Shown in pieces: positions 6,456-27,988 of a stretch of DNA of 64,000 nt. The position numbers and the translations under genes were made by a program. Numbering within the stretch: the first letter of the stretch is position 1; each line of letters starts with the position of its first letter. Origin of the DNA: Methanocorpusculum sp. Its GTDB lineage: Archaea > Halobacteriota > Methanomicrobia > Methanomicrobiales > Methanocorpusculaceae. The stretch is from NCBI GenBank assembly GCA_017387505.1, contig JAFOFB010000015.1, positions 287,469 through 351,468 on the forward strand. Direction: 5' to 3'. A model generated the notes under the pieces. That model ran no database searches, was not told where the DNA came from, and saw nothing but the letters and a program-made list of their open reading frames with translations.

Positions 6456-8042
6456 TTATAACTGAACGAACTTTGCAGAGGTGATACCGTCTGCGGATGC
6501 AACTTCTGCCATAACTTCCGGAGCGACAACGGAGTCGACTGCTAAAATCATAAGAGAGTCAGTTCCGACATTTGCTCCGCCGACCTGCATAGAGGAGATG
6601 TTGACATTGTTCTTTCCAAGGAGAGTTCCAACAACACCGATGATACCCGGTCTGTTGATGTGGTCTGCTAAGATAACATTTCCAACAGGTACGATGTCAG
6701 TCTTGTATTTTCCAATGGAGATGATGCGTGCTCCGCCTTCTTTGGTAACAGTACCGGAAACAGTCTTCTCGCCTGCTTCGGTCTTGATGGTTAAGGTAAC
6801 AAGGGACTTGTAGTCGCCTGCTTCGTCGGAGGTCTTCTCGACAATGTTCATGCCGCGGCCCTTTGCAACGAACTCTGCATTGACGATGTTGACCGGCTCG
6901 TGGAGAACCATAGAGAGCATACCCTTGACACCAAGGCGGGTAACGTACTTTAAATTCTGCTTGAGCTCTGCAACTTCACCTAAGTATGCGAACTCTGCCT
7001 CAGTGATTGGTGCTTCTGCAATCTGACCAACTAATGCACCCATCTTCTCTGCAAGCTGTGCGTATGCATCAACCTTTGCGCGTGCATCCGGGGCAACAAG
7101 CGGTGCGTTTACTGCGCTCTTTGCAGAGCCGCCGTTTAAAACATCGCGGCACTGGTATGCGACAGAGATTGCGACATTCTTCTGTGCTTCAACAGTGCTT
7201 GCTCCAAGGTGCGGGGTAACGATAACTGAGTCGAGAGTTAAGAGCGGAGACTCTGTCGGCGGCTCGTTCTCGAAAACATCGAGTGCTGCGCCTGCAACCT
7301 TTCCAGCAACGATTGCGTCATAGAGTGCTGCTTCATCAATGATACCTCCTCTGGCACAGTTGATTAAGCGCACGCCGTCCTTCATTGTTGCAATGGAGTC
7401 CTTGTTGATTAAGTGGGTAGTGGACGGGATAAGCGGAGTGTGGACGGTGATGACATCTGCCTTGGTGAAAAGCTCTGCAACAGACATCATCTCAACACCC
7501 ATAGCTGCTCCTACTTCTGCCGGGATGAACGGGTCGTATGCGATAACAGTCATCTCGAGTGCCTGAGCACGCTTTGCAACTTCGCATCCGATTCTTCCAA
7601 ATCCGACAACACCTAAGACCTTGCCGTTCATCTCGTTACCCATGAACTTGGAACGCTTCCACTCTCCCTTCTTTAAGGATGCGGATGCCTGCGGGATATT
7701 GCGTGCTAAGGCCATCATCATACCGATGGTGTGCTCGGTTGCTGCAAGGGTGTTTCCTTCCGGTGCGTTGGAAACGATGATACCCTTCTTGGTTGCTGCA
7801 TCAGTATCAATGTTGTCAACGCCGACACCTGCTCTGCCGATATATTTCATCTTGTCTGCGGCTTCGATGATGCGGGTGGTAACCTGAGTTCCTGAGCGGA
7901 CGATTAATGCATCGTATTCTCCGATGATTTTGACGAGTTCGTCTTCGGAAAGGTCTGCTTTTTCGTCGACTTCACTGAATTCTTTTAAGATATTTACTCC
8001 CTCGACTGCGAGAGGGTCGGATACAAGGACTTTGAAGGTCAC
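6456..8042 (-). CDS. serA: D-3-phosphoglycerate dehydrogenase
   Basis: 528 residues. First step of serine synthesis: oxidises 3-phosphoglycerate with NAD+. It has a D-2-hydroxyacid dehydrogenase catalytic part, a Rossmann motif VVGFGRIG near residue 147, the intervening (ASB) domain, and a C-terminal ACT domain (about 455-528) expected to bind serine. The start is GTG, giving VSDPLAVEG-type N-terminal sequence; a TATA-like stretch lies just upstream on the - strand. It is 64 bases downstream of the M42 peptidase gene. Confidence 0.95.
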   Translation of the reverse strand: MTFKVLVSDPLAVEGVNILKEFSEVDEKADLSEDELVKIIGEYDALIVRSGTQVTTRIIEAADKMKYIGRAGVGVDNIDTDAATKKGIIVSNAPEGNTLAATEHTIGMMMALARNIPQASASLKKGEWKRSKFMGNEMNGKVLGVVGFGRIGCEVAKRAQALEMTVIAYDPFIPAEVGAAMGVEMMSVAELFTKADVITVHTPLIPSTTHLINKDSIATMKDGVRLINCARGGIIDEAALYDAIVAGKVAGAALDVFENEPPTESPLLTLDSVIVTPHLGASTVEAQKNVAISVAYQCRDVLNGGSAKSAVNAPLVAPDARAKVDAYAQLAEKMGALVGQIAEAPITEAEFAYLGEVAELKQNLKYVTRLGVKGMLSMVLHEPVNIVNAEFVAKGRGMNIVEKTSDEAGDYKSLVTLTIKTEAGEKTVSGTVTKEGGARIISIGKYKTDIVPVGNVILADHINRPGIIGVVGTLLGKNNVNISSMQVGGANVGTDSLMILAVDSVVAPEVMAEVASADGITSAKFVQL

Positions 8043-8106
8043 GATAATCTCTATATTATTTGCTGTTTAGAGATATAGTGTTGGCGGGATGATGCCTGAA
8101 AAAAAG

Positions 8107-9165
8107 TTAGAAGTTTGGTTTTGTCTTGACTGCAAGACGGAGAAGCTCGATTGCTCCCTGTAAATCCTTTAAGTCAATGACTTCAACCGGAGAGTGGATG
8201 TAGCGTGCCGGAACTGATACCGGGACACTCGGGATTCCGCCGCGCTCGAAGTTGATTGCAGAAGCATCAGTGTTTCCGCCGTCTCCAACTTCAATCTGAA
8301 TCATGATGTCATGCTTTTTGGCGGTCTTCTTGAGCCAGTCAACCATGCGCGGGTCTGCTAAGTGGCCGCGGCCTGATGCAGAGACCATGACAACAACAGG
8401 TCCTTCTCCCATGAAAACAGGTGCCTTGCGTCTCTCAATTCCAGGTGAGTCTCCCGGGATTGTTACATCCGTTGCGATTGCAACATCTGGGTTGAGGGAA
8501 AATGCCGCAGTCTTTGCACCCTTAAGTCCGACCTCTTCCTGAACGGTAAAGACAGCATAGATGGTGTGCTTGGACTCCATCTCTTTTAAGGCTCCAATAA
8601 GCATTGCACATCCGACACGGTTGTCTAATGCTTTGCCGGTTACAACAGTTCCTGCAAGCGGCTGGTAGTCGCGGTCGATGGTTACAGTTGTTCCAACAGT
8701 GATACCCATGGCTTCAACCTCCTCTGTGGAGTGTGCTCCGACATCAATGAAGAGGTTTGCAAGCTCGATTTGCTTCTTTCTGTCTGCCTCTTCCATAACG
8801 TGCGGCGGCTTCATTCCAAGAACACCCGGGATGTCGCCTTTCTCACCGTGGAGAATCACACGCTGGGAAACTAAGACAGGATTGTACCATCCGCCTACAC
8901 CGACAAATCTGATGAATCCCTTCTCATCGATGTACTGGACCATTAAACCAATCTCGTCCATGTGGGCGGCGAGCATGATTTTGAAATCATCACCTTTCTT
9001 TACGGCAATCAGATTTCCCATACGGTCGGTTTTGATTTCATCCACATACGGTGCAATCTCATCGCGGATGATTTTGGCAACAGCTCCCTCAGCTCCGGAG
9101 ATTCCGTTTGCATTGGAGAGCTTTTCAAGTAATGCGTTAATTTCTTTCAGTTCCATCTTATTCAA
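8107..9165 (-). CDS. M42 family metallo-aminopeptidase
   Basis: 352 residues. M42 enzymes are large self-compartmentalising zinc or cobalt aminopeptidases (TET/deblocking type) that trim peptides from the proteasome. Metal-ligand segments are visible: AAHMDEIG, LDNRVG, the catalytic EEVGLKG, ATDVT, and a late histidine in ARYIHSP. It is often misnamed an endoglucanase. The start overlaps the aminotransferase stop by eight bases, which indicates co-translation. Confidence 0.9.
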   Translation of the reverse strand: MNKMELKEINALLEKLSNANGISGAEGAVAKIIRDEIAPYVDEIKTDRMGNLIAVKKGDDFKIMLAAHMDEIGLMVQYIDEKGFIRFVGVGGWYNPVLVSQRVILHGEKGDIPGVLGMKPPHVMEEADRKKQIELANLFIDVGAHSTEEVEAMGITVGTTVTIDRDYQPLAGTVVTGKALDNRVGCAMLIGALKEMESKHTIYAVFTVQEEVGLKGAKTAAFSLNPDVAIATDVTIPGDSPGIERRKAPVFMGEGPVVVMVSASGRGHLADPRMVDWLKKTAKKHDIMIQIEVGDGGNTDASAINFERGGIPSVPVSVPARYIHSPVEVIDLKDLQGAIELLRLAVKTKPNF

Positions 9166-18315: not shown

Positions 18316-19530
18316 ATGCAGAAAAAGCATTTCATTCTCGCAGCAGCTCTTCTCTGTCTTGCAGTCGTATTTTCAGCAGGCTGTGTTGACAACGGAGGCT
18401 CCGGAGAAAAAGTCGAAATCCTGTATGCAGGTGTGGGTAATATGCCTCAGCTCTTAGAATCCGGAGCTGTTGATGCCGCAATCGCCTGGCAGCCGTTTGT
18501 TGCAGTTATGGAAGAAGGACAGATTGGAAAAGTCATCTCCTACTCTGAAGACCTTCCGCCGGCAGGAAAGTGGGAAGGACACACCTGCTGTGTATTTGGT
18601 GCAAACTCATACGCACTTGCAAACCCTGAGATTGCCGCAGACATGACTGCACTGATGATTCTTGGAAACGAGTACATCACTGCAAATCCGGAAAAGTCCG
18701 CAGTGCTTATTGCAGACTGGCTCTTCGCAAACCAGGATTTAACCTACGGAGGAGTTACTGTAAACTCTGTCGATGTAATTGAAGCATCTATTTCGACCAT
18801 TAAATTCTCAGGTGAAGTTACTGATGCATGGATTAAGAGCAACGAAGACTTTGTCCAGTCTCAGCGCGACTTAGCATTAGTCAACGGAAAACTTGCAAAC
18901 ACCAACAGTGAGGAAACCAGAGAACTTCTCTTCGACTTCGGTCCGTATGAAGTAGCACAGGGAATTGTTGAGTCCGGCAAATTCTTAGAGCCTTCATCCT
19001 CTGTTAAGGAAATCTCTGTTGGATACCTCGCAAGTGACCATGACGGTCCGCTCTTTATCCTCTTAAAGGACTGGAAGTTCTTCAAGGACAACTACAACAC
19101 CTACTTAAAGCCGGTCACCGAAAAAGTTGGAAAGATTGACAAGGCAGAGCTGTATGTCAACGGAAAGAAAGTCTGTGATGTAAAACTCATCGAAGGAAGT
19201 GCAGGACCACAGCTTATGACGCTTCTGCAGCAGAACCAGATTCAGTATGCAGTTGCAGGAGCTCCGCCGTTTGTCTCTGCAGTTGACAAATCCACCAGTG
19301 CTGTTGATATCAAGATCTTAGCACCAATCATGATGAACGGTTCAGGACTTGTTGTATCTGACGAAGCACCGGCAGATGACTGGAACAGCTTTATTGCATG
19401 GGTTAAGGAACGCAGTGCAGAAGGCAAGCCTGTTGTAATTGCAGACCCGCAGCTTGGCTCCATTCAGGATGTCCAGTTAAAGGCCGCACTTGACTCTGCC
19501 GGAATTGGTTATACAACCAAATCCGCATAA
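18316..19530 (+). CDS. Lipoprotein solute-binding protein of an SsuA/TauA-type importer, domain order permuted
   Basis: 404 residues from the ATG at 18316, chosen because the TATA box is about 25 bases upstream and a clean lipoprotein signal follows (VFSAGC, lipidated C23). The sequence belongs to the NMT1/SsuA/TauA binding-protein group, but the order is reversed. Residues about 33-220 match what is normally the second half (LLESGAVDAAIAWQPF, HTCCVF, NPE, EYI). Residues about 232-400 match the usual beginning (ISVGYLASDHDGPLF, AVAGAPPFVSAVDK, GSIQDVQLKAALDSAG). The ligand is unknown: sulfonate, nitrate or another small anion or amine. Confidence 0.85.
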   Translation: MQKKHFILAAALLCLAVVFSAGCVDNGGSGEKVEILYAGVGNMPQLLESGAVDAAIAWQPFVAVMEEGQIGKVISYSEDLPPAGKWEGHTCCVFGANSYALANPEIAADMTALMILGNEYITANPEKSAVLIADWLFANQDLTYGGVTVNSVDVIEASISTIKFSGEVTDAWIKSNEDFVQSQRDLALVNGKLANTNSEETRELLFDFGPYEVAQGIVESGKFLEPSSSVKEISVGYLASDHDGPLFILLKDWKFFKDNYNTYLKPVTEKVGKIDKAELYVNGKKVCDVKLIEGSAGPQLMTLLQQNQIQYAVAGAPPFVSAVDKSTSAVDIKILAPIMMNGSGLVVSDEAPADDWNSFIAWVKERSAEGKPVVIADPQLGSIQDVQLKAALDSAGIGYTTKSA

Positions 19531-19591: not shown

Positions 19592-20353
19592 ATGAAGTGG
19601 TATACGAAGCTCATTCTCCCTGTGGCAGCAGTCCTCATATGGGAGATTGCAGCAATTCTGGTAAATAATCCATATATCCTTCCGCGGGTAGAAGATGTAT
19701 TCGCGGTTTTCTTAACTCCGTTCGCTGACATTTACGGAAGCGGAAGCTTAGTCAGCAACGCAGTTGTCAGTATCACACGTGTGGTTACTGGTTTTGTTAT
19801 CGCCTGCGTGATTGCCGTCCCTCTTGGAATTATCCTTGGACGCTATCCTCGGCTTGAAAACTTCTGTGACGGATTAATTCAGATTCTTCGTCCGATTCCG
19901 CCGATGGCATGGGTCCCGCTTTCTCTTGCCTGGTTTGGTATCGGAATGACCTCTATTGTGTTCATCATCGTGATTGGATGTTTCTTCCCGATTCTTGTGA
20001 ATACGATTGATGGTGTATCAAGAGTCAAGAAGAGCTGGCTTGAGACTGCAAAAATCTATCAGGCAAGCGACCGTCAGGTTTTATCCAAAGTTCTCCTTCA
20101 AGCCGCAGGTCCTGCAATCTGTAATGGTCTGCGCCTTGGATTTGGAATTGCATGGATGAGTGTCGTCGCAGCGGAAATGATGCCAGGAGCATCCTCCGGT
20201 CTTGGATACTTAATTATGTACACCTACAACTTCGGACAGGTTCACATCATCATCGCAGGAATGATTGCTATCGGAATCATTGGAATTGCTGCAGATCAGT
20301 TATTCCGCATTCTGCAGAAGAAGAAGTTCGCATGGGAGGCACTTGACAAATGA
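19592..20353 (+). CDS. ABC importer permease (SsuC/TauC type)
   Basis: 253 residues with about six transmembrane segments and the EAA-type loop around WLETAKIYQASDRQVLSKV, which docks the ATPase. It forms the membrane channel for the binding protein upstream. The gene follows after 61 bases that include a T-rich stretch and another TATA-like sequence, so it may have some independent transcription. Its stop overlaps the ATPase start by four bases. Confidence 0.92.
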   Translation: MKWYTKLILPVAAVLIWEIAAILVNNPYILPRVEDVFAVFLTPFADIYGSGSLVSNAVVSITRVVTGFVIACVIAVPLGIILGRYPRLENFCDGLIQILRPIPPMAWVPLSLAWFGIGMTSIVFIIVIGCFFPILVNTIDGVSRVKKSWLETAKIYQASDRQVLSKVLLQAAGPAICNGLRLGFGIAWMSVVAAEMMPGASSGLGYLIMYTYNFGQVHIIIAGMIAIGIIGIAADQLFRILQKKKFAWEALDK

Positions 20354-21138
20354 GCGAAACAGACTGGGACAAAGTATGGGTGAAGGTTGAGCATGCAACA
20401 AAGCAGTTCTTCACCAAGAAAGGAACAGTAACCGCACTCGAAGATGTTAATCTGGAAGTTCATGACGGTGAGTTTGTCTGTCTTTTAGGTCCTTCCGGAT
20501 GCGGTAAGACCACCCTCCTTCGTATGATTGGAGGTCTTGATGCTCCAACTTCCGGAACTGTTGAGATTGATGGAGAAATTGTTGACAAGCCGTCTCCGAT
20601 GATGACTATGGTCTTCCAGGAGTACTCTCTTTACCCGTGGAGAACCATTGCTGAAAACGTCGGTTTCGGTCTTGAGATGATGAAGGTGCCAAAAGACAAA
20701 CGCGCAGAAGGTGTTGCAAAGTACTTAGAGCTTGTAGGCCTCAAGGACTTTGGAAACAGCTATCCATATGAGCTCTCCGGAGGTATGCGTCAGCGCGCGG
20801 CTGTTGCCCGCGCTCTTGCAAGCGAGCCTGCTGTCATGCTTATGGATGAGCCGTTTGGCGCGCTTGATGCTCAGACCAGAAACAAGATGCAAAGAGAACT
20901 CCTCGAGATTTGGGAGAAGACAAAGAAGACCATTCTCTTTGTAACTCACAGCGTCGATGAGGCTGTTTTCCTCGCAGACAAGATTGTGATTCTAACTCCG
21001 AGACCGGGCAGAATTCACGAGATTTATGAAAACCCTCTGCCGCGTCCGCGTGACAGAACAAGTGTTGAGTTTGCAAGCCTCCGCAAAAAAGTTCTGCAGG
21101 TTATCGAAGAACTTGAGCAGGAGAATGCGAACCTTTAA
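20350..21138 (+). CDS. ABC importer ATPase (SsuB/TauB type)
   Basis: 262 residues. Walker A GPSGCGKTT, Q-loop VFQEYSLYPW, signature LSGGMRQR, Walker B VMLMDEPFGALD and the H-loop VTHSVDEAVF are all intact. It energises import through the permease encoded by the overlapping upstream gene. The subfamily is that of sulfonate, nitrate and taurine importers. Nothing in the sequence names the substrate. Confidence 0.95.
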   Translation: MSETDWDKVWVKVEHATKQFFTKKGTVTALEDVNLEVHDGEFVCLLGPSGCGKTTLLRMIGGLDAPTSGTVEIDGEIVDKPSPMMTMVFQEYSLYPWRTIAENVGFGLEMMKVPKDKRAEGVAKYLELVGLKDFGNSYPYELSGGMRQRAAVARALASEPAVMLMDEPFGALDAQTRNKMQRELLEIWEKTKKTILFVTHSVDEAVFLADKIVILTPRPGRIHEIYENPLPRPRDRTSVEFASLRKKVLQVIEELEQENANL

Positions 21139-27607: not shown

Positions 27608-27661
27608 TTTTTCAGCTTACCAATCCAACATCATTTTATCCCGTGAATGCGATTAATATAT

Positions 27662-27969
27662 GGGACTAGCCCGGGTGGTTTGGCGTCACCTGTAATCTGA
27701 AATTGTCAATAAGCAGAGGGCGAAGTTTGAGGACGGATTCGGCAGTCCTTTTGAGGCGGCAGGGTTTCCGATGTTGATACCTTGTCCTGCGAGGTCAGCG
27801 GATGTCTGTGGTGTATCCGGAGGGATGCATCCTCTCATAGTCGTGGGCACCGGTTCAGGCCCGGAAGGGAGCAGACCTACTGTGAACGCATGGCGCCCGC
27901 AGGGTTGCGGGGCGGAGTCTGGCTCTGTCGAAGAGACTGGATATGTGTCTTCAACCGATAACACGTCCC
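27662..27969 (+). ncRNA. ffs: Signal recognition particle RNA (7S RNA)
   Basis: About 308 bases. The SRP54-binding helix 8 sequence is plain at about 27850-27884, with GGTTCAGGCC, GGAAGGGAGCAG and ACC. The 5' GGGAC (27662-27666) can pair with GTCCC (27965-27969), closing the molecule, and GGTTTGGCGTCACC is an archaeal Alu-domain-like segment. A TTTTATCC box precedes it by about 25 bases, and a T run follows the 3' end. Ends are good to a few bases. Confidence 0.9.
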
Positions 27970-27988
27970 TTTTGATTTTGAGGGTTTT

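Follow-up and report, generated by a model that had tools for sequence, protein, structure and literature searches.

A circularly permuted NMT1/SsuA-type substrate-binding lipoprotein in Methanocorpusculum and related archaea

The window, the 64,000-nucleotide stretch of a Methanocorpusculum contig that was analyzed here, carries on its forward strand a gene for a substrate-binding lipoprotein of the NMT1/SsuA type (18316..19530; 404 aa) in which the two halves of the familiar protein seem to have changed places. This raises the question of whether the chain is truly permuted and, if so, whether it still serves an importer. The initial annotation had described a circularly permuted SsuA/TauA-type protein. 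The open reading frame and its translation, the swapped profile stretches, the gain in score upon rotation, and the rotated order of elements in an AF2 model confirm that description, and we show below the permuted order, a conserved breakpoint, the operon context, and a confident rotated fold model.

Apart from the order of its chain, the locus resembles those of ordinary relatives. A signal peptide (18316..18384, forward strand) ends in the lipobox VVFSAGC, with a predicted lipidated Cys23; G22 and C23 are invariant in the orthologue alignment, and in the translation of the frame VEILYAGVGNMPQLLESGAVDAAIAWQPF begins about 10 residues downstream of Cys23. The FSAGC motif matches the export signal and lipobox of NMT1/SsuA-TauA proteins, and the gene also shares their operon arrangement with a BPD permease and an ABC ATPase. 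The permease (19592..20353, forward strand; BPD_transp_1) is NtrB/TauC/SaoP-like and the product of a single gene; the ATPase (20350..21138, forward strand) is SaoA/NtrCD/TauB-like. Both are ordinary and adjoin the binding-protein gene, as the annotation had stated; the permease also neighbors the permuted genes checked elsewhere, and, where loci were checked, the ATPase comes after it as in the window. No PF13379 protein other than the window protein was found in its genome.

In native order, Pfam profile NMT1_2 (positions 6 to 149) aligns with residues 231 to 398, while NMT1 (positions 114 to 215) aligns with residues 25 to 127, so that the two stretches are swapped relative to each other. 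Joining the end of the protein to residue 33, which had been proposed to restore the familiar order, makes the NMT1_2 match continuous (positions 11 to 245; E value of 2.3e-22 versus 3.1e-19 in native order). The mature protein was also rotated in steps of 4 residues and scored on an ordinary-order profile built from 17 ordinary archaeal relatives. The best domain rises from 58 bits unrotated to 129 bits for the rotation that starts near the linker, within a broad optimum, and the two pieces meet at one position of the ordinary model. A rotated alignment no better than the direct one had been named beforehand as the refuting outcome; the rotated one scores much better. Four ordinary control proteins are best unrotated or gain only 1 bit, and distant permuted relatives improve as the window protein does (for example, from 95 to 200 bits).

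Family membership is significant by PF13379 (70.2 bits against a cut-off of 24.7), and the score for TIGR01728 (SsuA_fam) is 53.5 bits, below the cut-off of 163.5. The protein has no end-to-end profile match in the usual order and is collinear only once rotated; we classify it as a permuted relative of the NMT1/SsuA-TauA family rather than an ordinary member. Against PDB sequences, a distant permuted relative shows half-matches only, its N-terminal half aligning with an inner segment of the CmpC/NrtC binding-protein domain and its C-terminal half with the N terminus of TauA. The permuted order accounts for such fragment-like scores: profiles that match by halves, SsuA calls below cut-off, and the lack of an order-dependent fold match.

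The first block (residues 33 to 226; 18412..18993, forward strand), normally the C-terminal half, matches ordinary-model positions of about 181 to 342. By this match and by secondary-structure mapping to the ordinary-order model, it comprises the second half of lobe 2 (VEILY to AIAWQPF), the crossover strand, the HTCCVF strand, and the C-terminal helices of lobe 1. The description of a second-lobe block that comes first thus holds for the swap but not for the content of the block, which is only part of lobe 2 together with the C-terminal part of lobe 1. A linker (residues 221 to 231; 18976..19008, forward strand), modeled as the loop that separates helix 209-220 from strand 232-237, leads from the old C terminus to the old N terminus. 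The block that opens the ordinary mature protein does come last: residues 229 to 404 (19000..19527, forward strand), normally the N-terminal half, match ordinary-model positions of about 34 to 180, running from ISVGYLASDHDGPLF to GSIQDVQLKAAL and terminating in the loop past the GSIQD helix. The breakpoint is common to all 89 distinct permuted ORFs, with the C-terminal block ending at positions 172 to 184 and the N-terminal block starting at positions 169 to 195 of the ordinary profile. Lobe 1 also has an extra beta hairpin (residues 276 to 293; 19141..19194, forward strand), identified by DSSP of both models and the orthologue alignment; the ordinary-order model has no matching strand pair at that place. 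The hairpin recurs in the long relatives of the window protein, and a shorter permuted class apparently lacks it, judging by sequence.

The AF2 model of the window protein, computed from 21 orthologues, has a pLDDT of 88.5 and a pTM of 0.86, and that of an ordinary relative used as a control (L086) has a pLDDT of 88.3. By DSSP, the elements of L086 (a, helix; b, strand) run b61-65, a69-79, b90-94, a98-106, b112-116, a117-126, b130-138, b141-146, a154-157, b161-164, and a170-181 up to the cut, and then b191-194, a197-205, b211-215, a218-224, b228-233, b242-249, and helices past it. The window protein begins with b32-37, a40-49, b54-58, a61-67, b71-76, b90-97, and helices to residue 220 and continues with b232-237, a241-251, b263-266, the hairpin, a296-305, b311-315, a316-325, b332-340, b343-348, a356-368, b373-377, and a383-394. 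After rotation the two lists match one by one. Ordinary connectivity had been named as the other refuting outcome; the confident model is predicted to lack the type II fold in its ordinary connectivity and has instead the rotated order relative to the L086 control.

Foldseek finds a single PDB match to the window model at an E value of ≤1e-3 (TM of 0.25), and none of the top 50 has a query-normalized TM above 0.29. In comparison, the L086 model has 1,453 matches at an E value of ≤1e-3, including TauA (6.9e-21), SsuA (target-normalized TM of up to 0.85), and CmpA, likewise among the matches at about 1e-20. Because Foldseek is a sequential, order-dependent method, the lack of a sequential match is expected of a permutant, and its failure is not itself a superposition. 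Sequence and Foldseek searches of the PDB found no solved structure of such a permuted binding protein, and a viral fold library gave nothing useful for it.

In the ordinary protein, the two ends of the chain form lobe 1, with lobe 2 as an insert. In the window protein, the short linker joins the old N and C termini, both on lobe 1, and the new termini come from a cut of lobe 2 at the loop past the GSIQD helix. Lobe 2 would then be built from both chain ends and lobe 1 would become the continuous middle, while the hinge would retain two crossings and the cleft would be preserved. With the cut in the middle of lobe 2, this topology would give that lobe both the chain ends and the lipid anchor. 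The anchor, about 10 residues ahead of the first strand, would thus sit on what is normally the inner insert, in agreement with the suggestion that permutation moved it to the other lobe; its assignment to lobe 2 is inferred by way of the secondary-structure mapping. The lobes would probably still close on a ligand and dock on the permease. That permease, the product of a single gene, presumably acts as a homodimer, in which case either lobe might be able to carry the tether.

Within the genus, 24 of 25 genomes carry the orthologue in this permuted arrangement, nearly always at full length, and two of these genomes are single contigs. Orthologues, which had been suggested as a check in other Methanomicrobiales, are present across the order: about 120 of its 232 genomes have matches below an E value of 1e-25, a count that includes a second, more divergent permuted class. 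Further permuted proteins occur beyond the order. In the named collection the best matches are Methanocorpusculum, and a Methanoregula metagenome-assembled genome (MAG) has a full-length copy that is 45% identical; residues are strongly conserved in the orthologue alignment. Since the swap is conserved in many related archaea, the permutation is a long-lived working variant, not a broken gene. A third permuted class, shorter at about 340 aa, is found elsewhere in the phylum (L078-L085, L087, L088, L094, L096, and L197-L202), with A. fulgidus and Ferroglobus placidus possibly among its carriers. TIGR01728 matches these shorter relatives in two swapped stretches, with its positions 1 to 127 at the C terminus and the second stretch elsewhere.

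Permease and then ATPase genes lie downstream at every permuted locus tested, and a permease is linked to 126 permuted rows, not all of them distinct. A lipobox-like motif is found under a strict pattern in 65 of 87 distinct permuted proteins, and most of the others show either a variant lipobox or a run of hydrophobic residues at the N terminus. The second, divergent permuted class (L097-L111) belongs to the same taxonomic order and likewise has permease and ATPase downstream where checked; many of its members have an apparently uncleaved N-terminal hydrophobic stretch instead of a lipobox. One Methanomicrobiales-type permuted protein (L077, G369:C58:2537-3745) lies on a 6.5-kb contig from another family of the phylum, by horizontal transfer or MAG contamination. 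In one Archaeoglobus-type permuted operon (L159:2659-5144, G330), a DUF1850 gene is directly downstream, followed by a fused TRAP transporter permease gene. Among bacterial plasmids, no place covers 80% of the query and no permuted copy was seen; four plasmid proteins align on the ordinary profile in one ordinary-order stretch. Bacterial chromosomes and other archaeal phyla were covered by one narrow pattern scan only.

These data bear on whether the swap could be apparent and not real. The pseudo-symmetry of type II binding proteins, the odd registers of some weak OpuAC and SBP_bac_11 matches, and some short phmmer pieces that put the first block on the wrong half would all suit an ordinary protein whose swap is an alignment accident arising from the likeness between its lobes. 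However, long specific motifs of either half match in swapped order with high significance, their pieces meeting at a single model position; rotation doubles the score of this protein and not that of ordinary ones; and the model has the rotated order of elements. The rotation scan with its ordinary controls and the fold control rule out chance or lobe pseudo-symmetry, and we regard an accident as highly improbable. An artefact of assembly or annotation, or decay of the gene, might be suspected because the window genome is a MAG (24 contigs; 83.5% complete), but the same order in nearly the whole genus, single-contig genomes included, and across the order without stops, along with the strongly conserved residues, leads us to reject this reading, which is scarcely conceivable. 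The agreement within the genus thus rules out both chance and assembly error.

A chimera that joins the C-terminal half from one binding-protein gene to the N-terminal half from another might also be suspected, since fusion of neighboring paralogues is a usual route to permutants and two genomes have tandem permuted copies. Nevertheless, in trees of the separate halves, L086 is the closest ordinary row to all 24 permuted rows whichever half is used, so permutation of one gene is more likely than fusion of two. With the halves agreeing on the nearest ordinary lineage, we reject the chimera as improbable. The gene almost certainly encodes a working ABC-importer binding protein of the NMT1/SsuA/TauA/NrtA superfamily, with a type II fold and a circularly permuted chain.

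Such a chain probably arose when one ancestral gene was duplicated in tandem and the copies fused, with the outer halves lost afterwards. Duplication does occur at this locus, since two genomes of the genus have the permuted gene as a tandem pair (L166:5574-6818 and 6935-8170 in G019:C61; L023/L028 in G002:C65); no duplicated or fused intermediate gene was found. The G019 pair lies upstream of one permease-ATPase pair. Tandem copies have diverged (45% versus 55% identity to the window protein). Trees of the rotated proteins and of the permeases place the permuted proteins in two clades, and the best protein tree groups the Methanomicrobiales-type permuted clade with ordinary proteins of what we take to be the Methanocella type (support, 97/79). 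The tree tests do not reject a single clade of permuted proteins (p-AU of 0.40, 0.20, and 0.14), and we lean towards two origins over one. The fuller proposal, that permutation at the same lobe 2 loop arose at least twice independently, in the Methanomicrobiales-type and Archaeoglobus-type clades, and was kept for a functional advantage of the moved tether, is possible but rather doubtful.

The window protein shares with SsuA, TauA, and NrtA-CmpA (PF13379, TIGR01728; type II) its motifs, predicted lobes, operon partners, and exported, often lipid-anchored location but differs in that its chain is rotated, its termini lie in lobe 2 and not in lobe 1, and it has the extra hairpin. Natural permutation of binding proteins is already known. 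Tp0684 (TpMglB-2) of Treponema pallidum, assigned to “Type Ic / Cluster Bc,” is a lipid-tethered sugar-binding protein of type I fold that is conserved in its permuted form; ordinary sequence searches failed to match one of its ends, and its authors suggested that the permutation perhaps answers a membrane-anchoring need (PMC4990184). Both cases are natural, conserved circular permutations of a lipid-tethered ABC binding protein. However, Tp0684 is bacterial, has a type I sugar-binding fold rearranged inside the N lobe, and needs a fourth crossover, whereas the window protein is archaeal and type II, is cut within lobe 2, and has two crossovers. It belongs to NMT1/SsuA type II and not to the type I MglB-like fold of the TpMglB-2 group, and no sugar-binding (MglB-like) profile is among its Pfam matches.

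CPSARST found permutation relations among OpuAC, ProX, ModA, and CysB, betaine- and molybdate-binding proteins included (PMC2395249). These too are permutations between type II binding-protein folds, but they were detected by structure among proteins under 24% identical (PMC2395249), whereas the permutation described here is visible by sequence within one family and is conserved in orthologous operons. The window protein does not match PF04069 (betaine binding) at an E value of ≤1, which sets it apart from OpuAC/ProX; distant permuted relatives have weak partial matches. Searches of the open-access literature yielded no description of permuted SsuA/NMT1 or archaeal binding proteins. This large natural set occurs alongside ordinary-order relatives of the same phylum whose permeases are homologous, which makes it testable whether the tethered lobe matters and how permuted genes become fixed.

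The window protein very likely works in uptake by an ABC importer, and its family suggests a sulfonate, nitrate, or similar small anion as the substrate. Coenzyme M is speculation; no paper on its uptake in Methanocorpusculum was found. The conserved flanking genes (gatDE, argH, and por) are housekeeping genes and were rejected as a clue to the substrate. No riboswitch or other RNA clue was found, the Rfam matches in the window being tRNAs and SRP RNA only. The archaeal SRP RNA gene (27659-27972) adjoins genes for tRNA-Asn and tRNA-Met and is ordinary.
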